DNA of 64,000 bases from an uncultured Erythrobacter sp. Lineage in GTDB: Bacteria; Pseudomonadota; Alphaproteobacteria; Sphingomonadales; Sphingomonadaceae. Position 1 is the stretch's first letter, and each line of letters begins with the position of its first letter. The DNA is taken from NCBI GenBank assembly GCA_947501215.1, contig CANMUS010000002.1:62001-126000 (forward strand), in the 5' to 3' direction. A program made the translations under genes and the position numbers. This document shows, in pieces, positions 1,270 through 42,566 of the stretch. Below the pieces are notes generated by a model that saw only the letters and a program-made list of their open reading frames with translations, was not told where the DNA came from and did not search any database.

Positions 1270-1428
1270 GCCTCAAGCGCCGGCGGGGCCATCCGGCCCC
1301 TTAGGCTACCGCGCCAGCAGGCGCGACGGCCAGTCGGCCTTGCCGATCGCGAGCGATCGGAAACGAAGATTACTCTTGGACGGGAATAGCGAGGACGCCC
1401 GGCAGCCACTGGCCGCCGGGCGTTTTCG
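1270..1428 (-). repeat. Stem-loop repeat family, copy R0 (ctrA 3' end)
   Basis: This segment matches, in opposite orientation, the two long repeats in the GTA cluster. It begins 9 bp after the ctrA stop with GCCTCAAGCGCCGGCGG, as in the reverse complement of R2/R3. A hairpin follows with stem GGGGCC (1285-1290), loop ATCC (1291-1294) and GGCCCC (1295-1300). The stretch CGGCCAGTCGGCCTTGCC is shared with R2, and TAGCGAGGACGC near 1387-1398 is shared with all copies. The far end folds as a strong hairpin (1396-1422) followed by TTTT on the plus strand. R0 is shorter than R2/R3 (about 160 versus 245-260 bp), and the middle is divergent. Confidence 0.75.
1395..1427 (+). terminator. Rho-independent terminator after ctrA
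   Basis: CGCCCGGC at 1396-1403 pairs perfectly with GCCGGGCG at 1415-1422. The stem extends inward by a G-T wobble and three more pairs, leaving a tiny loop. TTTT follows at 1423-1426. It is also the outer end of repeat copy R0, which suggests that the repeat serves as the ctrA terminator. Confidence 0.65.
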
Positions 1429-1515
1429 TATCTTGCATGCTGCGCAATCTATCTTGGCAGCCCTGATGTTCTCTGCGATTTGGCGCCGACAACATGCGAA
1501 GGTGCATCGGGCCGT

Positions 1516-3312
1516 ATGGCGATTCTCTCGGATTACTCGGCCCAGATCGGCTGCTTGCTACTGGCCGCTACCTTTATCGCCTTCCTGCTCGAGCGCCAGC
1601 CGCCGGTCGTCATCGCCATCGCCTCGGCCGCGCTGATGATTGCGCTGGGCTATCTGCCGGCGAAAGACATGCTCGGCACATTCGCCAATTCCGCGCCGAT
1701 CACGATTGCAGCGATGTTTATTCTCTCGGGCGCGCTGCTGCGGACCGGAACCCTCGAGTGGGTATCCGGCTGGGTCATCCGGCGCACATCGCGTAGTCCG
1801 AAGACGGCGGTAGCGGAGATCGGCGCGGGCACCCTGCTCGCCTCGGCCTTCATGAACAACACCCCGGTCGTCATCGTGATGATCCCCGTCGTGCGCAAGC
1901 TGGCACAGGTTCTGAAGGTGGCCGCAACCCGGTTGCTGATCCCGCTGTCCTACATCACCATTCTCGGCGGCACGATGACGCTGATCGGCACCTCGACCAA
2001 CCTGCTGGTCGACGGCGTCGCGCAGGAAGCCGGTCAGCGCCCCTTCGGCATTTTCGAGATCACCGCAGTCGGTGCGGTGGCGCTCGTTTCCGGCCTTGCC
2101 ACTCTCATAATACTCGGCCCTTTCCTGCTGCCCAATCGCGGGAAGCGGATCGAGGACGACGAACGGGAGAGCGATCTCTACCTCACCCACCTCATCCTGG
2201 AAGGCAAGAGCCGCTATGTCGGACGGCAGCTGGCAGAAACCGACATCGGCCGCCGGCCCCAGGTCAAGATCGTCGGCATTCGGCGCGGGTCGGAAATGCG
2301 ACGCCACAATCTCGACGAACACGTGCTGCAGGCCGAGGACCAGCTGATCGTCAGCGCCAGCCCGGAGGAAATCAACTCCCTCGCCGAGGCACCCGACTTC
2401 CGCACCGGATTGGTGGGCGTGGGAGGCGGCGTCGCAACGTCCCGCACCGACCGGCCATCCGACCTTCGCATCGTCGAGGCCGTTATCTCTTCCTCGCATC
2501 CCATCGTCGGCAAACGGCTTGCGGATATCCCGCTCCTGTCGCGCCTGCGCGTACGCGTGCTAGGCCTCTCGCGTCCGCGCCATATTCCCGGTCCGACGCT
2601 GGCGGAAGCAAGGGTGCGCGCCGGCGACCGGCTCCTGATCGCCGCCGGCAGCGATGCGGCCCAGGCACTGCAGGGCAATATGCAGCTGACCCATGTGGGC
2701 GCGACCAGCGCCCGCTCGTTCCGGCGCGACAAGGCACCGATTGCCATCGCCACCATCGCCGCCGTCGTCGTCGGCGCGGCAGTGTTCGGCTTCCCGATCG
2801 AAGCGCTTGCCGTGTGCGGCGTGGCCGTCGTCCTCCTCACCCGCTGCGTCGAACCGAGCGACGCGTGGGGCAGTCTGGACGGCAATACGCTGGTCCTGAT
2901 CTTCGCCATGCTGGCTTTCGGCAAAGGGCTGGAGAATGCCGGTTCGATCGAGCTGATCGTGGCCGCGATCGAGCCCTATCTCGGAGCAAGCTCACCCCTC
3001 GTCCTCATCCTGATCGTCTATGCGCTGACCAGCATCCTGACCGAAGTGGTGACCAACAACGCGATTGCGGTCATCATGACGCCGATCGCGATCGGTCTGG
3101 CGGAAAGTGCCGGAGTGGACGCGCGCGCTTTGATCGTGGCGGTTATGTTCGGCGCCAGCGCCAGCTTCGCGACCCCAATCGGTTACCAGACCAACACGCT
3201 GGTCTATGGCGCGGCGAATTACCGTTTCGCGGACTTCCTGAAAATCGGCGTTCCGATGAACATCGGTGTCGGCATCGCGACGTCCTTCGCGATCTGGGCG
3301 TTCTTCGCGTAG
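1516..3312 (+). CDS. SLC13/ArsB-superfamily transporter with two RCK_C domains
   Basis: A 598-residue polytopic membrane protein of the ion-transporter superfamily (SLC13/CitT/ArsB-like). Two hydrophobic halves, each with several helices, flank two cytoplasmic TrkA-C (RCK_C) domains at roughly residues 215-290 and 315-390. The first half has the motif NNTPVVIVMIPV and the second has TEVVTNNAIAVIMTPIA; these paired Asn-rich hairpins are typical of the family and line the transport site. The family moves dicarboxylates, sulfate or other anions with Na+, and the TrkA-C domains usually sense ligands. The substrate cannot be read from sequence. The ATG at 1516 is preferred over a TTG at 1480 because the extra residues look non-coding. 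Confidence 0.85.
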   Translation: MAILSDYSAQIGCLLLAATFIAFLLERQPPVVIAIASAALMIALGYLPAKDMLGTFANSAPITIAAMFILSGALLRTGTLEWVSGWVIRRTSRSPKTAVAEIGAGTLLASAFMNNTPVVIVMIPVVRKLAQVLKVAATRLLIPLSYITILGGTMTLIGTSTNLLVDGVAQEAGQRPFGIFEITAVGAVALVSGLATLIILGPFLLPNRGKRIEDDERESDLYLTHLILEGKSRYVGRQLAETDIGRRPQVKIVGIRRGSEMRRHNLDEHVLQAEDQLIVSASPEEINSLAEAPDFRTGLVGVGGGVATSRTDRPSDLRIVEAVISSSHPIVGKRLADIPLLSRLRVRVLGLSRPRHIPGPTLAEARVRAGDRLLIAAGSDAAQALQGNMQLTHVGATSARSFRRDKAPIAIATIAAVVVGAAVFGFPIEALAVCGVAVVLLTRCVEPSDAWGSLDGNTLVLIFAMLAFGKGLENAGSIELIVAAIEPYLGASSPLVLILIVYALTSILTEVVTNNAIAVIMTPIAIGLAESAGVDARALIVAVMFGASASFATPIGYQTNTLVYGAANYRFADFLKIGVPMNIGVGIATSFAIWAFFA

Positions 3313-3356
3313 CGCACATCTGGACCGGCCCTGCCGACACCGCTAACGCGCGGCCC

Positions 3357-4058
3357 ATGTCTGCATTCAAGGAAGGCGACCCGACCACGCTCAACCGGCT
3401 GTATGGCCGCAGCCAGGGCAAGCCTTTGCGCGCCAGCCAGCAAGAGCTGGTCGACAAGCTGCTGCCGCAGATCAGCCCCCCGGCGGAAGGACCGGTCACG
3501 TCCCAGACGCTGTTCGGCTTCGACCGCCCGCTGCATTTCGAGATCGGCTTCGGCGGCGGCGAGCACATGGCCGAGCGCGCCGACCTGCTCCCCGACCATG
3601 GCTTCATCGGTGCAGAGCCATTCCTCAACGGCGTGGCGCAAGCCCTGACCCATGTGCGTGAGCGGACGCTTGCCAATGTCCGCATCCATCACGGCGACGC
3701 GCTGGAGGTGTTGGGTCGCGTGCCCGATGGCGCGCTCACCATGCTTTACCTGCTGCACCCCGATCCCTGGCCCAAGAACAAGCATGCCAAACGCCGGATG
3801 ATGAACGACGGGCCGGTGCGGATGTTTGCCGACAAGCTGAAACCGGGCGGCGAGTTCCGTTTCGGCACCGATCACCCGGTATACCTGCGTCATGCCCTGA
3901 TGGTCATGCGTCGCTTCACCGATGAGTTCGAGTGGGTCGTCGAAGGACCCGGCAGCTGGCAGAACCGCCCCTCCGGCTGGCCCGAAACCCGCTATGAGCA
4001 CAAGGCGCGCACGGTATACGGCCACGAGGTCTGGTATTTCCGCTTTCGCCGACGGTAG
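3357..4058 (+). CDS. trmB: tRNA (guanine-N7-)-methyltransferase TrmB
   Basis: The 233-residue protein methylates N7 of G46 in the tRNA variable loop using S-adenosylmethionine. Family features are visible: the SAM-binding motif FEIGFGGGEH, the following acidic strand with GAEPFLNGVAQAL, and the diagnostic HPDPWPKNKHAKRR segment with the catalytic Asp and basic residues. An N-terminal arm of about 50 residues precedes the Rossmann fold, as is usual in alphaproteobacterial TrmB. The start at 3357 is the first ATG in frame that fits the family length. The gene lies 44 bp after the transporter stop and may be co-transcribed with it. Confidence 0.95.
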   Translation: MSAFKEGDPTTLNRLYGRSQGKPLRASQQELVDKLLPQISPPAEGPVTSQTLFGFDRPLHFEIGFGGGEHMAERADLLPDHGFIGAEPFLNGVAQALTHVRERTLANVRIHHGDALEVLGRVPDGALTMLYLLHPDPWPKNKHAKRRMMNDGPVRMFADKLKPGGEFRFGTDHPVYLRHALMVMRRFTDEFEWVVEGPGSWQNRPSGWPETRYEHKARTVYGHEVWYFRFRRR

Positions 4059-4087
4059 CGCGGAACGACACCGGGTAGGCGGCGATT

Positions 4088-4105
4088 GATAGGGCGAGAC
4101 CTATC
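4088..4105 (+). promoter_or_regulatory. Small hairpin next to the aldehyde dehydrogenase ribosome site
   Basis: GATAGG at 4088-4093 and CCTATC at 4100-4105 form a perfect 6-bp inverted repeat with loop GCGAGA, immediately before the probable ribosome-binding site GGAGC (4106-4110) and 12 bases before the ATG at 4118. It could be a dyad operator or an mRNA hairpin that tunes translation. Six base pairs can arise by chance, so this is weak. Confidence 0.3.
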
Positions 4106-4117
4106 GGAGCCGCTCCC

Positions 4118-5485
<1,368 letters not shown>

Positions 5486-5495
5486 GAGATACGAA

Positions 5496-6149
5496 ATGAG
5501 CAAGACCATCCTAATCGTCGGCGCATCGCGCGGCATCGGCCTCGGCCTCGCAAGGGAATTCACCTCGCGCGGATGGACCATTGTCGCGACCGAGCGATCG
5601 AAGAGCGACGAGCTCCATGGCGTCGATGGCGTCGAGATTGCCACGCTGGACGTTACCGATCCTTCCACCTTCGATAGTGTCGACGGGTCCTTCGATGCAG
5701 TGATCATCAACGCCGGCATCACCGGAGCGAAACATCAGGACAGCGCCCAAGCAACCCGCGACGAAGTGGCGGACGTGATGATGACCAATGCCTTCGGCCC
5801 TGCTCATCTGGCAAAAACACTGCTGCCGAAGATCGCCGAGGGCGGGACGCTGGCGTTCATGTCCTCGCTCATGGGCTCGATCGACGACAGTTCAGGCGGC
5901 TACGAGCTGTATCGCACCAGCAAGACCGCGCTCAACATGCTGGCGAAGGGCATTGCCGAACAGGATGCTGGGCCGCGCAATATCGAAGTTCTCGCGCTGC
6001 ATCCCGGCTGGGTCCAGACCGACATGGGCGGACCGAATGCGACGCTGACGATAGATGAAAGCGTCAGCGGCCTGGCCGATGTGATCGAGGGCGCGGGCGG
6101 CGGCGGCTTCCGCTATGTCGATTACAGCGGGAAAGAACTCGCCTTCTAG
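5496..6149 (+). CDS. Short-chain dehydrogenase/reductase (SDR)
   Basis: A 217-residue classical-length SDR. It has the nucleotide-binding glycine motif GASRGIG (residues 9-15), the structural NAG motif, a catalytic Ser in FMSSLMG and the YRTSK form of the YxxxK active site. The family carries out NAD(P)-dependent carbonyl/alcohol interconversion; the substrate is not evident. It starts 11 bp after the aldehyde dehydrogenase with a good AGGAGAT ribosome site. Its TAG stop interleaves by 4 bp with the stop of the convergent aminotransferase gene, so no terminator space exists between them. Confidence 0.9.
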   Translation: MSKTILIVGASRGIGLGLAREFTSRGWTIVATERSKSDELHGVDGVEIATLDVTDPSTFDSVDGSFDAVIINAGITGAKHQDSAQATRDEVADVMMTNAFGPAHLAKTLLPKIAEGGTLAFMSSLMGSIDDSSGGYELYRTSKTALNMLAKGIAEQDAGPRNIEVLALHPGWVQTDMGGPNATLTIDESVSGLADVIEGAGGGGFRYVDYSGKELAF

Positions 6150-7286
6150 CCGAGGCACTGCGCAAGCGTCGCAAGCAGTGCGTCGTGGTCGGCTTGCGTA
6201 TTGTAGAGGTGCGGGGTCAACCGGAGCGATGCTGCGCGTAGCGACACATGCACGTGGTTGTCCGCCAGCCGCTCGGTGAGGCCGTCGGGTACGCCGTGCG
6301 GAAACTCAAGCGACAGGAAATGCGCTGCGCGGGTACCGATAGGGGCGGAGGTGAGGCCGAGCTTGGCCGCTGCTTCAGCGATTGCGCTCGTTCGCTCTGC
6401 CAACTCTTCGGCGATGCGGTCGACGCCGGATTCCATGAGGAAATCGATCCCGGCGCTCGCACCACGCAATAGCGGAGGATTGGACTTCTCGCCCATGTCG
6501 AAGCGCCGCGCGCCGGGCTGGAAATCGCTCCGGTAGTCGACCAGCCGGGAAAAATCTTCCGCTCCGCCGCGGTTGATCCAGTTGTGCTCGATCGGCTGCC
6601 CGTCATGATACTTCGGAGCAACATACAGCATGCCGATCCCATAGGGCCCCATCAGCCATTTGTAGCAGGCGGCGACGGCGAAATCGGGTTGTACCTGCGC
6701 GAAGTCGATCGGCATGGCGCCAAGCGACTGGGTGAGATCGAGCACCAGCGCAGCGCCATGCTCGCGGCATTTCTCGCCGACTGCGACAAGATCGACCACC
6801 CGCCCGTCGGCCCAATGGCAATTGGGCACGGAGACGATGGCGGTATCCGGTCCGATCGCGTCCAGCACTGCATCGGTCCAGCAGGATTGCGATGCTCGCC
6901 GCACGGCAAGCACTTCCGCGCCGGTCCTGCCGGCGAGGTCTTGCCATGCGTAGACGTTGGACGGAAACTGGTCGGCCAGCGTGACGATCTGCTGGCCCTT
7001 CGCGACCGGCAGGTTCTTTGCGGCCACTGCAAGGCCGTAGCTGACCGAAGGGACGATCGCGATATCGTCCACCGGCACGCCCGCCAGCCCGGCGGCATCA
7101 GAGCGAAAGTCCTCTGCCACGCTGAAGAAGTCCGCCGGGCGGAAATTCCACGGCTGCTCTTTCAGCCGCGCTGCCGCCACCATCGCTTCGCTCACCTCAT
7201 GCGAGAGCGGCGCCATATAGGCGCAGTTGAGGTAATGAACCTCGTCGGGAATGCTGAAGCGATGGCGCTGCGAAGCTATCACCAGA

Positions 7287-7300
<14 letters not shown>
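6146..7300 (-). CDS. Aminotransferase class V-fold PLP-dependent enzyme
   Basis: A 384-residue fold-type I PLP enzyme of the class V (cysteine desulfurase/kynureninase-like) group. The PLP-pairing Asp188 lies in VLDLTQS and the Schiff-base lysine is K214 in ACYKWLMGPYG. There is no SufS/IscS-type catalytic cysteine loop that I can identify, so desulfurase activity is doubtful; isomerase or lyase activity is possible. The chosen start is a GTG at 7300, overlapping the end of maeB by 14 bp. A GTG at 7282 is an alternative. The overlap suggests translation coupled to maeB. Confidence 0.85.
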
Positions 7301-9548
<2,248 letters not shown>

Positions 9549-9662
9549 GCAGACCTCGTTGCCAGTTGCCCCGCCCCTAACCTGCTTGTCCGCCCAGCGG
9601 TAGGGGAAACCTGCCGCTCCGCCGCTTCCCGAATCGGAAGCGCACAAGCTACGGCATAGGGC

Positions 9663-12287: not shown

Positions 12288-12301
12288 CTTCCTGGGCTGT
12301 A

Positions 12302-12709: not shown

Positions 12710-12744
12710 CGGAACCTTGCTCGGCGTCTACCGCTTATACCGGC

Positions 12745-30075: not shown

Positions 30076-30090
30076 TCGCACAACGCAAGA

Positions 30091-31551: not shown

Positions 31552-31617
31552 TGCGGGTCTCCGACAAAATTGCGTGTGCTTGTCTATTCCCGGGTTAGCC
31601 TTTACCGAAGCGAAAGA

Positions 31618-32304: not shown

Positions 32305-32331
32305 ATCGCCAGTTTCAAGCCACGCGCAGCG

Positions 32332-32977: not shown

Positions 32978-32989
32978 CGCCTGCTCCTT

Positions 32990-33023
32990 GTAACTTACAG
33001 GTTACATGTAACCTTGAGGTTAC
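32990..33023 (-). promoter_or_regulatory. Operator-like array of GGTTAC half-sites
   Basis: A perfect 16-bp palindrome AGGTTACATGTAACCT lies at 32999-33014. Two further half-sites flank it: GTAAC at 32990-32994 and GGTTAC at 33018-33023. This lies just upstream of the membrane protein/XRE unit. Such clustered sites suit cooperative binding by a dimeric HTH repressor, probably the product of 32332-32553. Confidence 0.65.
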
Positions 33024-33060
33024 TCAGAAGTCAAGCGCGATTCTGCCGCACTACGACAGC

Positions 33061-33252
33061 CTAATCGTCAGAGGTTCGCGCCGCACGCCGGTTGCCCAGA
33101 AAGGTCAGGATCACGCCGGGGATCAGGAACACCAGCGTCCAGTTCCCGATCCGGTCCATGTCCAGAAACCACTTGGCCAGTGCCAACAGAAGACCGATCG
33201 CCACGAAGATGCGCCCGAAGGTGGTCATATCGAGGCGGTCGAAAATGTTCAT
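33061..33252 (-). CDS. Small two-helix membrane protein
   Basis: A 63-residue protein with two hydrophobic stretches (about residues 11-27 and 37-54) and a basic C-terminus. No family recognised. The ATG at 33252 has GGAG about 10 bp upstream; the longer upstream frame is not needed. It lies between the XRE module and the VTT-domain gene on the same strand. Confidence 0.6.
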   Translation of the reverse strand: MNIFDRLDMTTFGRIFVAIGLLLALAKWFLDMDRIGNWTLVFLIPGVILTFLGNRRAARTSDD

Positions 33253-33346
33253 TGGCGGACTCCGTTGGGCGACAGGGGAATGAGAGCACCGAGCTATCAC
33301 GGCTATCCGCCACGGCATAGCGGGCGGCAGGGACATCGCCAGCGCC

Positions 33347-34000
33347 TCAGGGTCCGGCGCGCACCTCGCTCACATTCGCGCACGGCCCGCCGTCCTCGTC
33401 CTCGCTGCCGCCGAGCTGGGTCAGCACCAGGATGCCGCCGACCACCAGCAGCACGAACACCGTCGTCACCGTGCCGAGGTATTTGTCGATCACCCGCTTG
33501 ATCGGTGCGCCGAAGACGCGGAACAATATGCCCACGGTCATGAAGATCAGCGCGCGGGCGAACAGGCTGGAGAGCACGAAGGTCACGAGGTTCATGCCGA
33601 CGAAGCCGGCGGTGATCGTCAGCAGCTTGAACGGCACCGGCGTCGCGCCGGCGATCAGGATCGCCTCGAAATCGTACTCTCGCAGATGGCAGGCGGCGAC
33701 AGGGAAGGCCTCGGTCAGGCCGAGCGTGCCGATCAGCCACACGCCGACCGTATCGTAAAGCCCCCAGCCGATCGCATAGCCGAGCAGCGCGCCCGCCACC
33801 GAGGACAGCGTGGCGATCACCGAGAAACGGATCGCCTTGTTCGGCTCCGCCAGGCACATCAGGCCGAGCAGCGGGTGCGGCGGGATCGGGAAGAAGCTCG
33901 ATTCGACGAAGCAGAAGAACGCCAGCCACCATTCCGCATGGGGATGCGAGGCCTTTTCCATGGTCCATTCGTACAGACCGCGCAGCGGTTTCATGAGCAT
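33347..34000 (-). CDS. DedA/VTT-domain membrane protein, YqaA-like
   Basis: A 217-residue polytopic membrane protein. Family features are the FVESSFFPIPPHPLLG motif near the N-terminus, the re-entrant segment IAGATPVPFKLLTITAGFVGM and the following helices. YqaA/DedA members are implicated in lipid carrier transport and membrane homeostasis. An ATG two residues further in (33994) is an alternative start. Upstream lies repeat copy R1 and the GTA promoter region. Confidence 0.85.
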   Translation of the reverse strand: MLMKPLRGLYEWTMEKASHPHAEWWLAFFCFVESSFFPIPPHPLLGLMCLAEPNKAIRFSVIATLSSVAGALLGYAIGWGLYDTVGVWLIGTLGLTEAFPVAACHLREYDFEAILIAGATPVPFKLLTITAGFVGMNLVTFVLSSLFARALIFMTVGILFRVFGAPIKRVIDKYLGTVTTVFVLLVVGGILVLTQLGGSEDEDGGPCANVSEVRAGP

Positions 34001-34075
34001 GATGTTGGCAGGACCCCAGGCGTTGAAGACTTTGCGAGGTAGGGCAAGGTCGGGCCATGGGCAACGGAGGAATCC

Positions 34076-34216
34076 TTGTTTTTCGTCCCCGCATCCGCGG
34101 GCGCGTCCTCGCTAGATGTACGGCAAGCCGTACCCTCTGCGGGCGGGCGTGCAGGTGGCCTTTGGCCAGCGCACCAAAGGTGCACTTCCGCCCTTGCCTC
34201 GCCTGCGGCTCGGAAC
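34076..34216 (+). repeat. Stem-loop repeat family, copy R1 (upstream of the GTA cluster)
   Basis: A degenerate copy in the same orientation as R2 and R3. It opens with CTTGTTTTTCG and a hairpin CCCGC-ATCC-GCGGG (about 34089-34102), then GCGTCCTCGCTAGA as in R2/R3. A second hairpin, GTACGGC-AA-GCCGTAC, follows; in R2/R3 the same hairpin reads GTGCAGC-AA-GCTGCAC, a doubly compensated change. CTCTGCGGGCGGGC follows, then similarity fades. No gene lies in 34001-34418. Confidence 0.7.
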
Positions 34217-34262
34217 ACCTCGTTGGAAACGCCGATGCACGAACCTATTTGGCACTTTTTCA

Positions 34263-34291
34263 TTGACATCGTCACGCTCTTTGGGTACATA
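34263..34291 (+). promoter_or_regulatory. Candidate promoter of the GTA cluster
   Basis: A perfect -35 hexamer TTGACA (34263-34268) is followed after exactly 17 bp by TACATA (34286-34291), a weak -10. It lies 128 bp before the small terminase ATG, in the only gene-free region in front of the cluster. GTA promoters in relatives respond to GafA and the CtrA phosphorelay; I see no such site here. Confidence 0.35.
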
Positions 34292-34418
34292 ACTGGAACA
34301 TCGCGATAGTGTGATTCACCGGCCACCCGGCTGGAGCATGCGGCCCCCCTACCCCCTCGGTCGGCGGGCCGCTTTTGCGTTCCGCCATCGACAATCGGCC
34401 ACATTCCGGGAGGGACGG

Positions 34419-35036
34419 ATGACAAACGAACGTTCGGGCGATCGCCCCTGGTGGGAGGATAGCTTCATCGAAGGGCTCAAGCAGTTCGGCAAGGTGACCG
34501 CCGCCGCCAGGGCCGCCGGCATCACCACCGCCGGCCCCTATGCCCGCAAGAAGGTGTGCAGCAGCTTCAGCCGAGCCTGGGACGAGGCGCTGGAGATCTT
34601 CGCCCTCAGCGGGCGCAAGGCGAACACCCACAGCGCGGCCCGGCGCAAGGCGGACCGGTGGAAGACCGTGTTTCTCGAAGAACTGGCGGCCACCTCCAAC
34701 GTCTCTGCCTCTGCCACGGTGGCCGGGGTCAAGCCGGGTGAGGTCTATCGCACCCGCCGCGCGGATAGCGGTTTTGCCGCTGCGTGGCGCGAGGCGCTGT
34801 TCGAAGGCTATGCCAATCTGGAAATGGAAGTGCTGGGGTACCTGCGCAATCCGTCTCCCGACCGCAAGATGGACGTCGCCGTGGCGCTGCGCCTGCTTGC
34901 CGCGCACAAGGAAACCATCGCGAAGGAGCGGGCCCAGCGCGCCAATGTCAGCGCCGCGCAGATCCGCGAAACCATCGATCGCAAGGTCGAGGAATTGCGC
35001 AGGAAGGTGGCTGGCCGGGACATCGCACCGGCATGA
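34419..35036 (+). CDS. GTA small terminase-like protein (g1)
   Basis: A 205-residue DNA-binding protein in the g1 (TerS) position directly before the large terminase. It has two helix-turn-helix-like repeats: SFIEGLKQFGKVTAAARAAGI and, later, TVFLEELAATSNVSASATVAG. A charged helical C-terminus (HKETIAKERAQRANVSA) may oligomerise. In GTAs, TerS does not select specific DNA, allowing random host DNA packaging. The ATG at 34419 has GGGAGGGA before it. It overlaps the next gene as ATGA. Confidence 0.85.
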   Translation: MTNERSGDRPWWEDSFIEGLKQFGKVTAAARAAGITTAGPYARKKVCSSFSRAWDEALEIFALSGRKANTHSAARRKADRWKTVFLEELAATSNVSASATVAGVKPGEVYRTRRADSGFAAAWREALFEGYANLEMEVLGYLRNPSPDRKMDVAVALRLLAAHKETIAKERAQRANVSAAQIRETIDRKVEELRRKVAGRDIAPA

Positions 35037-36373
35037 GCGATACCGTTTCGCGACCCGGCATATGGGCGCGCCTCACCCCGGTCGAGCGCGAGGTTTTCAT
35101 CCACGGCCTGAGCGAGGAAGAACGCAACGCCTTCCACGGCGACTTCCGCAATCACGCACATGCAGGCCAGCTGCCGCGCGACGATCAATGGTTCGTCTGG
35201 CTGATCATGGCCGGGCGCGGGTTCGGCAAGACCCGCGCCGGGGCGGAGTGGGTACGCTTCGTCGCGGAGAAGAACCCCGAAGCGCGCATCGCGCTGGTGG
35301 CTGCCAATCTGGGCGAAGGCCGGGCCGTCATGGTCGAAGGCGAAAGCGGGCTGCTGGCCTGCTGCGCGGAAGCGGCGGGCGGCGCGCCGGTATTCGAACC
35401 TTCGCTACGGCGACTCAGCTGGCCGAACGGAGCGCAGGCCACGCTGTACTCCGCAGCCGAGCCGGAGGGTTTACGAGGCCCGCAGCACAGCCATGCCTGG
35501 TGCGACGAGATCGCGAAATGGCCGGCCAGTCACGACCGCGCCATCCGCACATGGGACAATCTCCTGATGGGCATGCGTCTTGGGGACGACCCGCGCATCA
35601 CGGCGACGACGACGCCGCGCGTGGTTGCGCTGATCCGCCGCCTGCTCGATCCGGGCCGGACACAGGGACTTACGCTGACACGCGGCACGACGCACGACAA
35701 TGCCGCCAATCTGCCCGCCAAGTTCCTCGTCACGATGGCCGCGGAATATGGCGACACCGCGCTGGGGCGGCAGGAACTGGGCGGGGAATTGCTGGAGGAT
35801 GTCGAGGGCGCGCTGTGGTCGCGATCGCTGATCGAGCGGTGCCGCGATACGGACAGCGCCGTGCCGATGGCGCGCGTGGTGATGGGCGTCGATCCGCCCG
35901 CCAGCGAGCGCGGCGACGAATGCGGCATCGTGGTGTGCGGCGTGGGCGAGAACGGCGTGGCGCAGGTGCTGGCCGATTGCTCGCTCGCCCGCCCCTCGCC
36001 CGAGCGCTGGGCGCGGGCCGTGGCCGAGGCGGCGAACGCCTGGCAGGCCGACCGCGTAGTGGCCGAAGCGAACCAGGGCGGCCAGATGGTCGGCAGCGTA
36101 TTGCGCGCCGCCGACCTCGCCCTGCCGCTGACGCTGGTCCACGCCAGCCGCGGCAAGGTCGCGCGCGCCGAGCCGATCGCCGCACTCTACGAAAGCGGAC
36201 GGGTGCGGCACGCCGGCCTGTTCGCGAAGCTGGAGGACCAGCTGTGCGGGCTGATGACCGGCGGCGGCTACGAAGGACCGGGGCGAAGTCCGGACCGTGC
36301 CGACGCGCTGGTCTGGGCGCTGAGCGAGCTGATGCTGGGGCGGCGCGGTCGGCCCCGAATACGAAACGTCTGA
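35033..36373 (+). CDS. GTA large terminase (g2)
   Basis: A 446-residue terminase ATPase-nuclease that drives DNA into the prohead. Walker A is AGRGFGKT at residues 60-67. A Walker B-type DE occurs in HAWCDEIAKW. The C-terminal RNase H-like nuclease domain starts at about residue 275 with VVMGVDPPAS and has further Asp/Glu residues in VVAEANQGG and SPDRADALVWAL. It matches the DNA-packaging protein of alphaproteobacterial GTAs and seems intact. Confidence 0.95.
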   Translation: MSDTVSRPGIWARLTPVEREVFIHGLSEEERNAFHGDFRNHAHAGQLPRDDQWFVWLIMAGRGFGKTRAGAEWVRFVAEKNPEARIALVAANLGEGRAVMVEGESGLLACCAEAAGGAPVFEPSLRRLSWPNGAQATLYSAAEPEGLRGPQHSHAWCDEIAKWPASHDRAIRTWDNLLMGMRLGDDPRITATTTPRVVALIRRLLDPGRTQGLTLTRGTTHDNAANLPAKFLVTMAAEYGDTALGRQELGGELLEDVEGALWSRSLIERCRDTDSAVPMARVVMGVDPPASERGDECGIVVCGVGENGVAQVLADCSLARPSPERWARAVAEAANAWQADRVVAEANQGGQMVGSVLRAADLALPLTLVHASRGKVARAEPIAALYESGRVRHAGLFAKLEDQLCGLMTGGGYEGPGRSPDRADALVWALSELMLGRRGRPRIRNV

Positions 36374-36387
36374 CTTAAGGAATTCCC

Positions 36388-37536
36388 ATGTCCTTCCTCA
36401 CCAGTATCGCCTCCGCCTTCAAGGGCGGGGGCCAGTCGCGCGTGCCTGTTTCGCGTGGCTTTATCTCCCCCTGGGCGACGGCGCTCGATGCGGGGCCGAT
36501 GCCGTTCGATTATGCCAGCGCGGTGCGCGCGGGGTATCTCGCCAATCCGATCGCGCAGCGGTCCGTCAGGATCGTGGCCGAGGGGGTCGGCGGCGCGCCC
36601 ATCGCCTGCGAGGACGAGCGGCTGGCGCAGCTGCTCGCCTGTTCCTGCGGGTCGCAGCCGCTGCTCGAGGTGCTGGCGGCGCAATTGACGCTGCACGGCA
36701 ATGCCTATGTGCAGATCGTCAAGGACGGCGCAGGCGTGCCCATCGAGCTCTATCCGCTGCGGCCCGAGCGCGTGCAGGTGGTGGCGGGCGAGGATGGCTG
36801 GCCGAGCGCCTATCGCTACGTCCTCGCCGATCGCACGCTGACCATTCCGCTGGAGGACGAGGACGGATGGCCGAACGTCGTCCACCTCAAGGGCTTCCAC
36901 CCGGCGGACGACCATTACGGCGCAGGCTGTCTCGCCGCCGCCGCTCCTGCCGTCGCAATCCACAATGCGGCGAGCGAGTGGAATCGCGCGCTGCTCGCCA
37001 ATGCGGCGCGGCCGAGCGGCGCGCTGGTCTATGACGGCGGAGATGCGGCGGGGCTGACGAGCGAACAGTTCGACCGGCTCAAGGCCGAACTGCAGAGCGC
37101 CTTCCAGGGCCATGCCAATGCGGGGCGGCCGATGCTGCTCGAAGGCGGGCTCGACTGGAAGGCGATGAGTCTTTCGCCCGCCGACATGGATTTCGCCACG
37201 CTCAAGGCCGCGGCGACGCGCGACATCGCGCTGGCCTTCGGCGTGCCGCCCATGCTGCTCGGCCTGCCGGGCGACAACACATACGCCAACTACCGCGAGG
37301 CGAGCCGCGCGCTGTGGCGGCTCACGCTGCTGCCGCTGGCGGGCAAGATCCTGAACGGCCTCCACACCGGGATGAGCGACTGGTTCAAGACCGCGCCCAG
37401 CGTCGATCTCGACCGCGTGCCTGCGCTGGCGGAAGACCGCGAGAAGCTGTGGGAGAGGGTCAGCGCCGCCGATTTCCTCAGCGCCGAAGAAAAGCGCGCG
37501 ATGCTGGGCATTGCGCCGCAGGAGACCATCCGATGA
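36388..37536 (+). CDS. GTA portal protein, HK97 family (g3)
   Basis: A 382-residue portal protein (HK97 gp3 family) that forms the ring through which DNA enters and to which the tail attaches. Conserved parts are AQRSVRIVAEGVGG, LHGNAYVQIVKD, RPSGALVYDG and IALAFGVPPMLLG-LPGDNTYANYREA. Length and motif order match the GTA version. It begins 14 bp after the large terminase, and its stop overlaps the following small gene as ATGA. Confidence 0.95.
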   Translation: MSFLTSIASAFKGGGQSRVPVSRGFISPWATALDAGPMPFDYASAVRAGYLANPIAQRSVRIVAEGVGGAPIACEDERLAQLLACSCGSQPLLEVLAAQLTLHGNAYVQIVKDGAGVPIELYPLRPERVQVVAGEDGWPSAYRYVLADRTLTIPLEDEDGWPNVVHLKGFHPADDHYGAGCLAAAAPAVAIHNAASEWNRALLANAARPSGALVYDGGDAAGLTSEQFDRLKAELQSAFQGHANAGRPMLLEGGLDWKAMSLSPADMDFATLKAAATRDIALAFGVPPMLLGLPGDNTYANYREASRALWRLTLLPLAGKILNGLHTGMSDWFKTAPSVDLDRVPALAEDREKLWERVSAADFLSAEEKRAMLGIAPQETIR

Positions 37537-37841
37537 CCAGAGAAGACATGCTCGCCCGCCTGATCGCGCAGGCGGCGACCGAATGGGGCGAGCTCATCAC
37601 ACTGCGCGCCATCGTGGAGGAGGCGAGCGAGCTCGGTGCGAACCGTGTGCTCGACCGGCTCGGCCTGTCGGACGCGCGGGCGCAGGACGATATCGACGAG
37701 CTGCGCGAGCTGCTCTCCGCCTGGCGCGATGCCAAGGCGAGTGCGTGGAAGGCGGCGGTCGAGTGGCTGGTCCGCGGGGTGCTGGCGCTGCTGCTGGTCG
37801 GCATCGCGGTGCGGCTGGGCGTCGGGGAGATGCTGTCGTGA
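37533..37841 (+). CDS. GTA head-formation small protein (g3.5 position)
   Basis: A 102-residue protein between portal and protease genes, the place held in RcGTA by g3.5 (rcc01685). It has a helical, acidic N-terminal two-thirds and one C-terminal hydrophobic helix (WLVRGVLALLLVGIAVRLG). The sequence resembles the DUF6127-type proteins seen in sphingomonad clusters, by memory only. Start and stop overlap both neighbours (ATGA, GTGA), consistent with coupled translation. Function is not established. Confidence 0.75.
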   Translation: MTREDMLARLIAQAATEWGELITLRAIVEEASELGANRVLDRLGLSDARAQDDIDELRELLSAWRDAKASAWKAAVEWLVRGVLALLLVGIAVRLGVGEMLS

Positions 37842-38248
37842 CGGCGCTCCAGAAGACTTTGCGCATCGCTGGCTATGCCGCCCTGTTCGACCGCGCCGAT
37901 GGCGTGCGCGACACGATACGTCCCGGCGCTTTCCGCAGGACCCTCGCCGAGCGCCGCGCGCCCTTCCCGCTCTATTGGCAGCACCGCCCCGACCAGCGCA
38001 TCGGCTGGGTCGAAACCGCGGGCGAAGACGAGCGCGGGCTGCGCATCGTCGCACAGATAGACAACCCCGATGGCCGCGCTGCGAAACTGCTCCGCGACCG
38101 CGCGGTGAACGGCCTCAGCTTCGGCTATCGCGCACGCGCCTATTGGCATACCGAGGCCGGGCGCGAGCTCGCCGATATCGAACTTTTCGAGGTCAGCGTC
38201 GTGACGCATCCGTTGCAACCGGATGCTCGCATTCATCTCACCACTTGA
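37838..38248 (+). CDS. GTA prohead protease, HK97 type (g4)
   Basis: A 136-residue serine protease of the HK97 prohead family that cleaves the capsid protein during maturation. A catalytic His is in LYWQHRPDQRIGW and the nucleophile Ser is in VNGLSFGYRA. The N-terminal IAGYAALFDRADGVRDTIRPGAF is a family hallmark. The start is a GTG at 37838 overlapping the preceding stop as GTGA. It appears intact although its substrate gene downstream is broken. Confidence 0.93.
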   Translation: MTALQKTLRIAGYAALFDRADGVRDTIRPGAFRRTLAERRAPFPLYWQHRPDQRIGWVETAGEDERGLRIVAQIDNPDGRAAKLLRDRAVNGLSFGYRARAYWHTEAGRELADIELFEVSVVTHPLQPDARIHLTT

Positions 38249-38322
38249 AACCGACCTACACCAGTTTCCCCCGCCGCCTTCCGGGCGGCTTTTTTGTGCC
38301 CAGAAGAAAGGCGAATACCTCT

Positions 38323-39433
38323 ATGGATATTACCGTGACCCCCGCCGCGACGGCCGTGGCGACCGACCCCGCTGCGAGCCAGGCCGAGGCGAGCTTCGAC
38401 ATCGTCGCGCGCCAGGACAAGACCGAGGCCGACGTCTCTGCCCTGCGCTCCGATGTCGACGAGGTGAAGGCCCGCGTCGACAAGATCGCCCAGGCCGCAA
38501 CGCGCCCCGCCCGCCCCGTCATCGGCGGTGCCGAGCAGGCCGCGCCCGAAGTGAAGGGCTTCGTGGACAGCTATCTGCGCCGCGGCGCGACGGCGGAATA
38601 CAAGTCGATCAGCGGGGCCGTGCCGTCCGACGGCGGCTATGCCGTGCCGCGCCAGATCGATGCGATGATAGCTCGCGAGCTAACCGAGATCAGCCCGATC
38701 CGCGCCATCGCGCAGGTCGTGCAGACCGGCAGCGCGGGATATCGCAAGCTCGTCTCCACCGGCGGCACCGCCTCGGGCTGGGTCAGCGAAACCGATGGCC
38801 GTCCCGAAACCGACACGCCGAGCTTCAGCGAGATCGCACCGCCGACGGGCGAACTCTACGCCAATCCGGCGGCATCGCAGGCCATGCTCGACGATGCGGG
38901 CTTCGACCTCGAAAGCTGGCTGGCGAGCGAGATCGCGATGGAGTTCGCCCGCGCCGAAGGAGCCGCCTTCGTCAACGGCACCGGCTTCAACCAGCCCGAG
39001 GGCTTCCTCAATGCGCCGGTTTCGGCGCAGGCCGACGGCAGCCGCAATTTCGGCGCGCTGCAATATGTCGGGAGCGGCGATGCGGACGGGTTCGACACCA
39101 ATCCCGATGCGAAGCTGATCGACCTCGTCCACACGCTGAAAGCCGGCCATCGCCAGGGCGCGAGCTTCGTGATGAATTCCGCGACGCTGGCCGAAGTCCG
39201 CAAGCTCAAGACCGCCGATGGCGTGTTCCTGTGGCAGCCGGGCCTGGTCGAAGGCCAGCCCGATCGCCTTCGGCAATTTCCGCCACGGCTATCTGATTGC
39301 CGAACGCAGCGCCACGCAGGTGCTGCGCGATCCCTTCACCAACAAGCCCTTCGTCCACTTCTACGCCACCAAGCGCGTGGGCGGGCAGGTGCTGGACAGC
39401 AATGCGATCAAGCTCCTGAAGATCGAGCTGTAA
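38323..39433 (+). pseudogene. GTA major capsid protein, HK97 family (g5), frameshifted by an internal deletion
   Basis: The first frame reads a normal HK97 capsid protein from the ATG at 38323 (delta domain, then EVKGFVDSYLRRG and SGAVPSDGGYAVP, to WQPGLVEGQPD) for about 315 codons. Near 39262-39268 it leaves the family sequence. The expected C-terminus (IAFGNFRHGYLIAERSATQV to KLLKIEL) resumes one frame over and ends at 39433. About 25 residues that normally lie between these two blocks are absent. The junction is a shared GATCGCC, as expected for deletion between short direct repeats of a 3n+2 length. Read straight on, frame one continues to 39762 into the next gene. Either the capsid gene is dead or this is an assembly fault. 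Confidence 0.85.
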
Positions 39434-39444
39434 GGAGCTGGCAG

Positions 39445-39483
39445 ACGGGCTCGGGGTCCCCTTTTCGGGCCCGTTTGTTTTTT
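39445..39483 (+). terminator. Rho-independent terminator after the capsid gene
   Basis: ACGGGCTCG (39445-39453) pairs with CGGGCCCGT (39466-39474), with one G-T pair and a 12-nt loop. A T-rich run TTTGTTTTTT follows. It would end transcription in the middle of the GTA operon, or act as a partial attenuator that favours capsid over tail genes. Confidence 0.65.
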
Positions 39484-39725
39484 GCTTTTCGCAGCCGCAT
39501 CCGCGGCTGCGTCCTCGCTAGACGTGCAGCAAGCTGCACCCGCTGCGGGCGGGCGGTCGCCCTTGCCGGGCCTCCGCCGGCCCGGATCCAGCGCAGACAT
39601 TTCCTCTCCCAGAGAACCGAGGCGAAGCCGAGGCAAGGCCGACTGGCCGCCCGCAGCGACGCGGACGCAGTCCGCATGAGCGAGGATAGCCAAGGCTGCG
39701 GATGCAGCCGCCGGCGCTTGAGGCC
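39482..39725 (+). repeat. Stem-loop repeat family, copy R2 (between g5 and g6)
   Basis: A 244-bp repeat nearly identical to R3. In order it has hairpin GCAGCCGC-ATCC-GCGGCTGC (39491-39510), the constant GTCCTCGCTAGAC, hairpin GTGCAGC-AA-GCTGCAC (39524-39539) and a GGGCC/GGCCC hairpin. A variable stretch follows, then CGAGGCAAGGCCGAC, an end hairpin GGCTGC-GGAT-GCAGCC (39694-39709), and CGCCGGCGCTTGAGGCC. Open frames across it on both strands are compositional. It ends 21 bp before the g6 start. Confidence 0.85.
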
Positions 39726-39746
39726 CAAACAAAGGACACCAATTCC

Positions 39747-40283
39747 ATGCGCCAAATCGTGACGCAGGCCGAGTTCACCCAGCTCCCGCTTGCCGAGCTC
39801 AAGACCTGGCTGGCGATCGGGGGGACGCGGGACGATGCCGTTCTTGCGAACCTGCTCGATGCGGCCGGGGCGATGTGCGAAAATTTCACCAGGCTGGCGC
39901 CGCTCAAGATAACGGTGCGCGAGCGCGTGCCGGCCTCTCGCGAGTGGCAGACCCTGCATACGCGTCCCTTCGTGGGGCTCGGAACGGTCGAGGCCGTCGG
40001 ATCGGGCGGTTCATCGCGGCTGCTTGACCCGTCCGACTTCGAGATCGGCAGCGAGACGGATACCACGCGCATCCGGCTCACCGGGAACATCGCCGAAACC
40101 TCTCTCGACGTCAGTTACACCGCCGGTCTGGCAGAGGACTGGGCGGCGCTCGATTCCGGCCTGCGCCATGGCATCGTGCGCTTCGCCGCCCATGCCTATC
40201 GCGAGCGCGATCAGGGCGGCGATACGGCCCTGCCCAGCGCCGTTGCAGCGCTCTGGCGGCCATGGCGCAGGATGAAGCTGTGA
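39747..40283 (+). CDS. GTA head-tail connector, gp6-like adaptor (g6)
   Basis: A 178-residue connector that binds below the portal ring. Features are the helical N-terminus AELKTWLAIGGTRDDAVLANLL, the central beta region and the C-terminal helix GLRHGIVRFAAHAYRERD typical of phage gp6-like adaptors. The ATG at 39747 lies just past repeat R2, whose end is close to the AAAGGA ribosome site. Its stop overlaps the next small ORF as GTGA. Confidence 0.88.
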   Translation: MRQIVTQAEFTQLPLAELKTWLAIGGTRDDAVLANLLDAAGAMCENFTRLAPLKITVRERVPASREWQTLHTRPFVGLGTVEAVGSGGSSRLLDPSDFEIGSETDTTRIRLTGNIAETSLDVSYTAGLAEDWAALDSGLRHGIVRFAAHAYRERDQGGDTALPSAVAALWRPWRRMKL

Positions 40284-40426
40284 GCTTCGCCGCCGTGACT
40301 CGCGCCCTCACTCGCCGCGCCGCAAACATCGCCAAGGCCCGCGCCGAACTTCACCGTCGAAGCGATCCAGCCCGTTGGCGCCAGCCGCGCCTGCTGTGGC
40401 CCGACTTCACCCGGAGGCCCGAATGA
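40280..40426 (+). CDS. Short ORF in the head-stopper (g7) slot
   Basis: A 48-residue basic peptide from a GTG at 40280 (overlapping the g6 stop as GTGA) to a TGA that overlaps the g8 ATG. Both junctions look like coupled translation. An ATG at 40262 would give 54 residues. In RcGTA this place holds the head-tail stopper g7 of about 110 residues. I cannot recognise that fold in the sequence (LTRRAANIAKARAELHRR and so on). It may be a shrunken stopper or an unrelated peptide. Confidence 0.5.
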   Translation: MSFAAVTRALTRRAANIAKARAELHRRSDPARWRQPRLLWPDFTRRPE

Positions 40427-40830
40427 GCATCCTAATGATGGAAAGCGCCCTGCGCCGCGCGCTGGTCGACTGGCTGCGTGCCGACAGCACGCTCGCCGGA
40501 CTGCTCAATGCGGTCGAGGAGGAAGGGCCGGTCGCCGCCAGCCCACCTTCGCTTGCCATCGTCGCCTCCGCAGCGGCGGATCGCAGCCACAAGAGCGGCG
40601 CGGGCCGCGAAGTCCGCATCGCCTTCGAATTGGTCGACCGGACCGACGATCCGGCCGCAACCGCAGCCATTGCAGCGCAGATCGAACATCGCATTGCCAC
40701 GCTCGCCCCCGGCCAGACCGGCTTCCGCGTGGCGACCACGCAATTCCTGCGCAGCCGCGTCGAACGCCGCGCCCGCAGCGCCCGCGCGGTGCTGCTCGAA
40801 TATCGCTTCCTCATTTTCGCAACGGAGTAA
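40423..40830 (+). CDS. GTA tail terminator, DUF3168 (g8)
   Basis: A 135-residue DUF3168 protein, the tail-terminator that caps the tail tube and joins it to the head. Family features: N-terminal helix ESALRRALVDWLRADSTLAGLL, strand VRIAFELVDRTDD and C-terminal RSARAVLLEYRFLIF. The ATG at 40423 overlaps the preceding short ORF. The gene is intact. Confidence 0.88.
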   Translation: MSILMMESALRRALVDWLRADSTLAGLLNAVEEEGPVAASPPSLAIVASAAADRSHKSGAGREVRIAFELVDRTDDPAATAAIAAQIEHRIATLAPGQTGFRVATTQFLRSRVERRARSARAVLLEYRFLIFATE

Positions 40831-40836
40831 TTCGCC

Positions 40837-41244
40837 ATGACAGCCCAGAAAGGCGCCGCCTTCCTCCTCAAGATCGGGGACGGCGGATCGCCGGAGACTT
40901 ACGAGACCGTCGCCGGCCTGCGCACCACGCAGATGTCGATCAATGGCGACACCGTCGTCGTCACCACCAAGGAATCGGGCGGCTGGCGCGAGCTGTTGTC
41001 GGGCGCAGGAACGCGCTCGGTCTCGGTTTCGGCGAGCGGGATTTTCCTCGGCTCCGATGCCGAGGACCGGATGCGCGCCAACGCGCTCGCCGGAACGCTC
41101 GATGCCTATGAGCTGTCGTTCGAGGACGGCGCAAAGATGCGCGGCCAGTTCCTCGTCCAGCGGCTCGATTACGCGGGCGATTTCAACGGCGAGCGGACGT
41201 ACTCGGTCCAGCTCGAAAGCTCGGGCCAGGTGGTGCCGCTATGA
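40837..41244 (+). CDS. GTA major tail tube protein, TP901-1 family (g9)
   Basis: A 135-residue tail tube subunit. The order GAAFLLKIGDGGSPETYETVAGLRTTQMSIN, then VTTKESGGWRELLSGAG and a C-terminal DFNGERTYSVQLESSG is characteristic of the phage major tail protein (TP901-1/gpV-like). It should polymerise to form the tail tube. It starts 6 bp after g8 and overlaps g10 as ATGA. Confidence 0.92.
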   Translation: MTAQKGAAFLLKIGDGGSPETYETVAGLRTTQMSINGDTVVVTTKESGGWRELLSGAGTRSVSVSASGIFLGSDAEDRMRANALAGTLDAYELSFEDGAKMRGQFLVQRLDYAGDFNGERTYSVQLESSGQVVPL

Positions 41245-41546
41245 GCAATAAGGTTCGCGGCGAGGCGACGCTCAGTATTGGCGGAAAGGACCACCTCCTT
41301 CGCCCCAGCTTCGATGCGCTCGTCCGCGCCGAGGAAGAACTCGGCCCCCTATTTGCGCTGGTCGAGCGGGCGGGCGCGGGCAAGTTGCGCCTCGCCGAGA
41401 TCGTCGCGCTGTTCTGGCATTGCCTTGCGGATCGCGAGCACATCGGGCGCGAGGCGGTGGGCGACGCAGTCATGGCGCAGGGCCTGGCCGCCAGCGCCAA
41501 ACCGCTGCGCGTGCTGCTCGGCGAAATCCTGAAAGGGTCGGGATGA
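41241..41546 (+). CDS. GTA gp10-like tail assembly protein (g10)
   Basis: A 101-residue protein of the gene transfer agent gp10 (GTA_gp10/TAC) family, recognised by KVRGEATLSIGGKDHLLRPSFDALVRAEEELG at the N-terminus. It is thought to act as a tail assembly chaperone with the following small gene. It overlaps both neighbours by ATGA junctions. Confidence 0.88.
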   Translation: MSNKVRGEATLSIGGKDHLLRPSFDALVRAEEELGPLFALVERAGAGKLRLAEIVALFWHCLADREHIGREAVGDAVMAQGLAASAKPLRVLLGEILKGSG

Positions 41547-41737
41547 GCGAGCGCTTCGCGGACATGGCGCTGCGCTGTGCAGGGTTGGCCGCGAGCGCGC
41601 TTAGCTGGACGCCCGACACCTTCTGGAACGCGACCCCGGCGGAGCTGCTTGCCAGCCTCGCGCCGCCACAAGACAGCACGACCCCACCCAGCCGCGACCA
41701 GATCGCGCGGATGATCGAAAGGGACGACAATGGTTGA
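41543..41737 (+). CDS. GTA tail assembly chaperone (g10.1)
   Basis: A 64-residue protein in the g10.1 place. It carries the family motif SALSWTPDTFWNATPAEL and a C-terminal helix QIARMIERD. Such two-gene chaperones before the tape measure are normally linked by frameshift in phages; here they are separate, overlapping genes. Its end overlaps the tape measure start by 8 bp. Confidence 0.85.
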   Translation: MSERFADMALRCAGLAASALSWTPDTFWNATPAELLASLAPPQDSTTPPSRDQIARMIERDDNG

Positions 41738-42308
41738 CGATATCGACGAGCTAATCGTCTCTGTCCGGGCCGATACGCAGGCCTTTGCCGCCGACATGCA
41801 ACAGATGCGCGGCACCTTCGACGGCACGCTGATGGACGGCTTCGATAAGGCCGGCGATGTGCTCGAACGCGGGCTGCTGAGCGCGCTCCGCAAAGGCAGC
41901 CTCGGCTTCGACGATCTGAAGCGGACCGCCACCGCGGCGCTCGACCAGATCGCGGCGCAGGCGCTGCAATTGGGGCTGGACTCGCTGTTCGGTGGCAAGG
42001 GCGGGCAGTCGGGCGGTTTCGGCGGCCTGTTCCAGGGCGCACTCGGCGCTCTGTTCGGCCTCCCCGGCCGTGCGACCGGCGGCCTCGTCGGCCCCGACAA
42101 GCCTTATCTCGTGGGCGAGCGCGGGCCCGAACTGTTCGTGCCCACCAGCGCGGGCCGCGTGGAGCCGAATACCGGCAGCAGCAGCAAAAGCACTGATGTG
42201 CGTGTCGCCATCAACCTCTCCACGCCGCGCGGCACCAGCGCACCGGTCGCCATGCAGCGCAGCTCGCGCCAAGTGGCAGCGGCAGTGCGGCGGGCGTTAT
42301 CTGTTTAG
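41730..42308 (+). CDS. GTA tape measure protein (g11)
   Basis: A 192-residue tape measure, very short as in other GTAs, implying a short tail. The N-terminal helical part contains VSVRADTQAFAADMQQM. A Gly/Leu-rich segment SLFGGKGGQSGGFGGLFQGALG follows, then RATGGLVGPDKPYLVGERGPELFVP, a conserved tape-measure C-terminal motif. The stop codon touches the first base of repeat R3. Confidence 0.9.
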   Translation: MVDDIDELIVSVRADTQAFAADMQQMRGTFDGTLMDGFDKAGDVLERGLLSALRKGSLGFDDLKRTATAALDQIAAQALQLGLDSLFGGKGGQSGGFGGLFQGALGALFGLPGRATGGLVGPDKPYLVGERGPELFVPTSAGRVEPNTGSSSKSTDVRVAINLSTPRGTSAPVAMQRSSRQVAAAVRRALSV

Positions 42309-42566
42309 CCTCAAGCGGGGTGTTTGTTTTTCGCACCGACATCCGTCGGCGCGTCCTCGCTAGACGTGCAGCAAGCTGCACCCGCTGCGGGCGGGCGGTC
42401 GCCCTTGCAGGGCCTCCGCCGGCCCGGATCCAGCACGTACTTCACCCCTCCCAGAGCACCGAGCCGAAGGCGAGGCAAGGCCGACCGGCCGCCCGCAGCG
42501 ACGCGGACGCAGTCCGCATGAGCGAGGATAGCCAAGGCTGCGGATGCAGCCGCCGGCGCTTGAGGC
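42308..42566 (+). repeat. Stem-loop repeat family, copy R3 (between g11 and g12)
   Basis: A 259-bp repeat bounded by a 10-bp terminal inverted repeat: GCCTCAAGCG (42308-42317) and CGCTTGAGGC (42557-42566). Inside, it follows R2 almost base for base, except the first hairpin, which is CCGAC-ATCC-GTCGG (42336-42349) against GCAGCCGC-ATCC-GCGGCTGC in R2. The AA-loop hairpin and the GGAT-loop end hairpin are identical to R2. It begins at the g11 stop and ends 18 bp before g12, filling the whole gap. Confidence 0.88.

Follow-up and report, generated by a model that had tools for sequence, protein, structure and literature searches.

The DNA analysed here, called the window, is a stretch of 64,000 nucleotides from an uncultured Erythrobacter sp. 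(assembly GCA_947501215.1, contig CANMUS010000002.1, positions 62,001 to 126,000). It carries a gene transfer agent-like cluster (34419-50103, approximate ends) and four copies of a hairpin-rich repeat, R0 to R3, of which R1 lies just before the cluster and R2 and R3 inside it. These copies, and the hairpins that a first-pass annotation had quoted from them, were all located in the window sequence. They belong to a family that is composed of two kinds of unit, has covarying stems and is positioned at stop codons, from which a function at the 3' end of genes, and selection for it, may be inferred.

Architecture of the repeat

The complete element is composed of two homologous half-units of ~105 bp, L and R, in inverted orientation and with their heads outwards. 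Each unit contains short hairpins in series, with constant loops and linkers and variable stems. In L units, TTGTTTTTCGC is followed by hairpin A, whose loop is ATCC or CTCC; then come TCCTCGCTA, hairpin B with the loop AA, CCGCTGCGGGC, hairpin C with a loop of GGTC or AGTC, TTGCC and a variable fourth hairpin. R units have the same order of parts, with GCCTCAAGCGCCGGC in front of hairpin A, TTaGGCTATCCTCGCT between A and B, CGCTGCGGGCG between B and C, and again TTGCC and the fourth hairpin after C. A BLAST search of R3 against its own genome (3.04 Mb) gave 28 matches, the best other copy with an E-value of 2.1e-98, and a covariance-model search of the same genome, which the first-pass annotation had proposed, gave 25 matches to the L model and 23 to the R model at E <= 0.001. 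The two models weakly pick up each other's units; counted by hand from the model matches, minus these weak cross-matches, the genome holds 14 L units and 12 R units, distributed over 19 sites (seven L-R pairs, seven solo L units and five solo R units, R0 included). R2 and R3 are full L-R pairs and R1 is an L unit alone. Among 34 pairs in sampled loci, 32 are arranged head-out (11 L-R, 11 R-L and 10 L-L) and the remaining two are direct; these loci were drawn from the best-scoring matches, so diverged units and R units are under-sampled.

Covariation of the stems

Compensatory changes in the stems with fixed loops, first noticed among the copies of the window, are found throughout the family, and the covariation is strong; in three alignments the double-sided changes exceed those of all or nearly all shuffled controls. 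In the first (A1; 37 L units out of 40, after dropping L049, L023 and L050, whose hairpins are replaced), standard pairs occupy 96.4% of 740 cells, sliding the partner lowers pairing to 23-43%, and double-sided changes occur at 13 of the 20 pairs (74 cells), with none of 500 shuffles as high on these measures; the count of pair types was matched by 4 of 500. In A2 (20 R units out of 24, after dropping L046:1-90, which is incomplete, L058, which carries an insertion, L016 and L020), 93.2% of 439 cells are paired and 8 of 22 pairs show double-sided changes, equalled by 3 of 500 shuffles, the count of pair types being matched by 39 of 500. The largest alignment, A3 (120 L-type matches, 105 of them distinct), has 97.3% of 1,995 cells paired and 16 of 20 pairs changed on both sides (319 cells; 0 of 500 shuffles as high), although it leans towards the model because its sequences were fitted to it. 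The loci chosen for A3 numbered 99 and those for A4 98, without L151-L155 and some others. The fourth hairpin was excluded from these counts because it aligns poorly, and the independent events are fewer than the cells, since cells count sequences and copies convert each other. The first-pass annotation held that its proposal would fall if compensatory changes were not in excess; A1 and A3 contain that excess.

The hairpin-A pattern fits 86 of 93 L units, with perfect 7-bp arms in 56 (of 22 kinds), one mismatch in 29 and two mismatches in one; of the 86, 77 carry ATCC or CTCC as their loop. The base of the stem is nearly constant in the 37 L units (CG in 33 at pair 9-30, GC in 36 at pair 10-29). 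That the stems change and yet stay matched suggests that the repeats keep their shape more than their exact letters.

Position relative to genes

Genes were called with a purpose-written codon-score script, and the context counts drop duplicates, sites with less than 250-300 bp of flank and four sites without two neighbours. The 92 sites comprise 47 between tandem genes, 35 between convergent genes, six between divergent genes and four unclassified; none was classed as intragenic. Control gaps (at least 60 bp long, from 19 stretches, some of them mutually orthologous and holding elements) are distributed differently (122 tandem, 24 convergent, 41 divergent; chi-square p 3.7e-7), although such p-values overstate the difference because some sites are the same gene in several species.

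The position of the unit heads at stop codons is new in this analysis. In solo units the T-rich head lies at a median of 2 nt from the stop codon (between -6 and 8 nt in 35 of 44), and in pairs at a median of 7.5 nt (the same range in 24 of 40), whereas the head is a median of 55-59 nt away from a gene start, and solo units have their tail at a median of 32 nt from a stop. Of 28 solo units between convergent genes, 27 have the head, and not the tail, closest to a stop. Where genes are in tandem and the head of a solo unit faces the upstream stop, the two are a median of 1 nt apart; otherwise the tail is found at a median of 100 nt. Several copies contribute their first bases to the stop codon itself.

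Copies in the window

Table 1. Units and hairpins of the repeat copies in the window
Feature	Positions	Strand	Basis
R0, divergent R-type unit	1270..1360	+	R model 51.2 bits, E 3.9e-7
R0, 12-mer GCGTCCTCGCTA	1387..1398	-	sequence pattern match
Terminator-like GC hairpin followed by TTTT, beside R0	1396..1426	+	read in sequence, also in fold
R1, solo L unit, hairpin C enlarged	34076..34213	+	L model 87.2 bits
R2, L unit	39482..39585	+	L model 122 bits
R2, R unit, head at 39724	39617..39724	-	R model 121.8 bits
R3, extra GCCTCAAGCG ahead of the L unit, left arm of 10-bp inverted repeat	42308..42317	+	
R3, L unit	42324..42427	+	L model 126.2 bits
R3, L hairpin A, stem 9 bp, loop ATCC	42332..42353	+	columns 9-30 of A1
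R3, L hairpin B, stem 7 bp, loop AA	42366..42381	+	columns 44-59 of A1
R3, L hairpin C, stem 4 bp, loop GGTC	42393..42404	+	columns 72-83 of A1
R3, R unit, head at 42566	42459..42566	-	R model 122.7 bits

R0, which had been taken for a copy of the family, is a divergent R-type unit accompanied by GCGTCCTCGCTA and not a full copy. Its head is 8 nt past the stop codon (1259-1261) of a response-regulator gene, and its GCGTCCTCGCTA leads into a hairpin with TTTT behind it. The predicted RNA fold of R0 has -92.6 kcal/mol (z -6.0) and that of R3 has -150.4 kcal/mol (z -6.3), equally low in none of 200 shuffles. The end hairpin of R2 and R3 has its ATCC loop on the minus strand. In R3, the first G of GCCTCAAGCG finishes the TAG stop of the open reading frame that ends at 42308. 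The 10-bp terminal inverted repeats of R3 had been regarded as a trait like that of a miniature inverted-repeat transposable element (MITE), which does not extend to the family: the extra GCCTCAAGCG before the L unit was found in three copies only (R3, its ortholog in the relative G050 and one copy of G033, L043), and it is the two homologous units that are inverted throughout.

The gene transfer agent-like cluster encodes portal, HK97 capsid, head-tail connector, tail tube and tail sheath/DUF2460 proteins. Of 60 genus genomes, 37 have a match to the portal protein, some of them a weak one; the match in G050 (C1:524893-526026) contains one TAG. The capsid gene runs out of frame after about 39259-39277, where relatives have several tens more bases (a deletion or an assembly error). 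Sixteen of 95 listed sites, in nine genomes, fall in such a cluster against 0.55 expected, an enrichment biased by a list that ranks sites by similarity to R3, itself in the cluster, and by several sites shared by descent. In the genome itself, which is less biased, R1-R3 make three of the 19 sites within ~17 kb (p 2e-4, computed with 21 sites), and few of the L-model matches listed for other genus genomes are in the gene transfer agent cluster. In Caulobacter crescentus, according to one report, GC-rich repeats in the gene transfer agent cluster (terGTA) end transcription and are bypassed by GafZ (PMC11150451). These resemble R1-R3 by description, as GC-rich repeats of ~150 bp that contain imperfect inverted repeats and lie in such a cluster, and differ in being three direct repeats after the first gene (PMC11150451).

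Turnover at shared sites

The two nearest relatives compared, G050 and G047, have R2 and R3 at the same places. R1 is present in G050 and absent in G047, and R0 is present in G050 and was not found in the stretches of G047 examined. Orthologous copies differ by stems swapped as matched blocks; for instance, hairpin A of R3 has the arms CCGAC/GTCGG here and in G047, and CCCGC/GCGGG in G050. R2 is 91.8% identical to R3 of the same genome and 88.8 and 88.3% identical to its own same-site orthologs, suggesting that R2 was converted by R3. At C2:178762, an L-R pair here corresponds to an R-L pair in G050 between the same flanks, with further sequence differences, and at C2:187937 a solo L unit corresponds to an L-L pair in G050 (by eye). 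Thus, from few sites, conversion between copies and turning in place may be inferred. Both relatives have an element near window 38236-38299, where none is found here; the short spacer at this place holds a GC hairpin followed by TTTTTT. The flanks of a relative meet at five sites, which give two clean comparisons and three with unalignable flanks. No target duplication was found at the two clean sites, C1:850327 and C4:217213, where the element was added at a stop codon; at C1:850327 some 24 bp were replaced.

Distribution across genomes

Matches to R3 and to both models occur well outside the genome, in related genera, which the first-pass annotation had proposed to search. R3 DNA is matched in 59 of 60 genus genomes. 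In the order, 131 of 396 genomes have matches to the L model; 120 of these belong to the same GTDB family, and the 11 outside it match weakly. A pattern scan of named genomes found at least 112 stretches, and the genera among the matches listed are Qipengyuania, Aurantiacibacter, Erythrobacter, Porphyrobacter and Altererythrobacter, the other titles among them being Erythrobacteraceae, Sphingomonadaceae, Sphingomonadales and Alphaproteobacteria only.

In the class, matches to the R model occur in 17 of 385 genomes, four in the same family and 13 elsewhere. G727, G618 and G650, outside the family, have several copies of ~90 bp each with the same skeleton, and G686, also outside, has one, apparently between the 23S and 5S rRNA genes; a further match, in G762, appears to be false, resembling 23S rRNA itself. 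A copy on a Nitratireductor plasmid (L333:1440-1560), apparently between two tRNA genes, shares 85.1% identity with R0 over 86 bp. Judging from this distribution, R may be the older and wider form and L a derivative. In G727 and G650 (L305, L322, L312, L325), R-like units stand between other hairpins, with arms such as AGCGAGCC/GGCTCGCT.

A phage or plasmid element was considered and rejected: phages gave no match and plasmid and IMG/VR matches were few. On plasmids there are one 38-bp match to R3 and one 86-bp match to R0, in the same record, and three matches of 39-40 bp to a G727 copy. Of five IMG/VR matches, L298, L299, L301 and L302 follow the gene transfer agent cluster of the window, and L300 is matched by the element alone; because of this alignment, the first four are probably cellular clusters called viral.

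Comparison with known repeat families

That no named family fits the element agrees with Rfam, which gave no match in the window and none above the gathering threshold at eight loci. At E <= 1 these loci gave only tRNA, Plastid-ycf2 over tRNA, and MIR8565, the last at L013:659-803, where 42.5 bits fall short of the cut-off of 136 and the match probably arises as an artefact of a long hairpin. No description of the element was recognised in the literature searched, which lacks most subscription journals. By its features, the closest class is that of repetitive extragenic palindromic (REP) sequences and bacterial interspersed mosaic elements (BIMEs), and within it the alphaproteobacterial CGTC-tagged REPs, so that the element may be filed as a REP/BIME-like repeat of a new variety.

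CGTC-tagged REPs are 20-40 bp long and contain one hairpin, with a stem of 8-9 bp, a loop of 4-5 nt and an unpaired tag; AT occupies the first and second positions of the stem, and the tail is of the CCA type (Di Nocera et al. 2013, PMC3733652). The features in common are intergenic palindromes 3' of genes, stem subfamilies with complementary changes, and singletons and inverted dimers without a dedicated transposase (PMC3733652); here, 32 of the 34 pairs are inverted and the RAYT (Y1) domain PF01797 is absent from the genome, other transposases not having been searched. On the other hand, the element described here has three or four hairpins over ~105 bp, too long for such a REP (hairpin A alone, with 9 bp and 4 nt, would fit), and a CG stem base and a T-rich head or outer side where AT and a CCA-type tail would be expected. 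L units have CGTC (or CATC) right after hairpin A, with its CG paired in the 9-bp stem, and R units lack CGTC. Full membership was therefore rejected on unit size, stem base and tail.

A RAYT-driven REPIN was also rejected, as PF01797 has no match in the genome, a search that was positive in five of 14 named genomes, and is found in five of 60 genus genomes; inverted pairs of hairpin units dispersed in one genome recall REPINs, whose units are far shorter. Neither is the unit a textbook intrinsic terminator, because its T-run is on the wrong side of hairpin A; in R0, TTTT follows a separate hairpin. The Rhizobium intergenic mosaic elements (RIME; Osteras 1995) of another alphaproteobacterial order are mentioned as intergenic repeats with conserved sequence and secondary structure (PMC2573895, PMC2245857), a likeness by name and mention.

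Interpretation and alternatives

The element is best explained, from sequence comparison and at about even odds, as a dispersed, non-coding, REP/BIME-like palindromic family of Erythrobacteraceae, with more distant kin in other alphaproteobacteria, that acts as an RNA module at 3' ends. With the head of a unit joined to a stop codon, the mRNA would read stop, U-rich stretch and hairpins A, B and C. Hairpins at its 3' end would block 3'-5' exonucleases, and transcription might end or stall at them without a downstream U-tract. An inverted pair would serve two convergent genes, and copies would persist at shared sites while being rewritten by conversion and in-place changes of orientation. In Escherichia coli, as a recent study reports, removal of REPs from 3' untranslated regions shortens mRNA half-life (2025, PMC12306157). 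Selection for RNA or cruciform structure, which the first-pass annotation had suggested, is likely although unproven, because copies overwrite each other in blocks and template switching also keeps palindromes matched.

Several observations weigh against a 3'-end RNA module. Solo units between tandem genes show no significant polarity, only 16 of 26 having the head towards the upstream stop (p 0.33), and the T-run precedes hairpin A in L and R units alike. Many of the counted sites are orthologous between species and hence not independent, and the element at C1:850327 is missing in both relatives, as is that at C4:217213 in G050. Moreover, G-U pairs are not commoner than A-C, so the mark of selection on a single RNA strand is lacking: L units contain 11 G-U against 38 A-C (1,995 cells) and R units 14 against 16, without asymmetry, whereas eight tRNAs from the same loci, a small control of 174 pairs, contain four G-U and no A-C. 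A sense strand was sought in these counts and abandoned: A1 seemed asymmetric, but many of the A-C cells of A3 are concentrated in a few column pairs (11 in one, 7 in another), a pattern expected of inherited variants, and R units were symmetric. Stem matching is close to Watson-Crick on either strand, which agrees with DNA hairpins or with an element that is read in both directions, and indicates no single RNA strand.

The main alternative, compatible with a 3'-end module and less probable though quite conceivable, is a selfish miniature mobile DNA, whose single-stranded hairpins would be recognised by a transposase acting in trans, as in REPINs; loops and linkers would then be protein contacts and stop codons landing or tolerated sites. 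The near-perfect Watson-Crick matching without preference for wobble, the inverted head-out pairs, the places occupied or empty among related species and the copies scattered in nearly all genus genomes agree with it, but the scarcity of PF01797 described above does not (other transposase families were not searched). The two sites lacking a target duplication also speak against it, although REPIN-like insertion need not leave one, and the distance of a few nucleotides to stops is tighter than tolerance alone would predict. The block-wise swapping of stems between orthologs, the apparent conversion of R2 by R3 and the scarcity of one-sided intermediates could also reflect DNA mechanics, in which template switching in palindromes and conversion between copies restore complementarity without structural selection; this seems improbable, as only the stems vary, with loops and single-stranded linkers unchanged, and the position at stops requires a separate cause.

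Independent genes for structured small RNAs would account for the conserved structure, but they are very unlikely, given the absence of an Rfam match and copies that adjoin stops, some inside an operon-like cluster, so that 3' untranslated regions fit better. Chance palindromes, which GC-rich DNA readily suggests and which the first-pass annotation had named as a possible undoing of its proposal, can be set aside as excluded by the BLAST E-values, the shuffles (0 of 500) and the occurrence of GCGTCCTCGCTA eight times in the genome, against none for the reversed control pattern.

A broader extension of the 3'-end reading, itself rather doubtful, would make these repeats an alphaproteobacterial class of modules anchored at stop codons, in which shape and fixed loops are recognised, which would do the work of a terminator or cap without a U-tract, from two sides when paired, and which would stay functional despite free turnover of the stems. 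The terminator known from the gene transfer agent cluster of Caulobacter offers a comparison for the copies in the cluster here, and the stem turnover at shared sites is a natural experiment in how structure survives changes of sequence. Should the 3'-end reading be true, the distance to the stop codon would be a direct handle for tests, and a REP-like family, of a kind often disregarded, would provide GC-rich alphaproteobacteria with a portable 3'-end signal.

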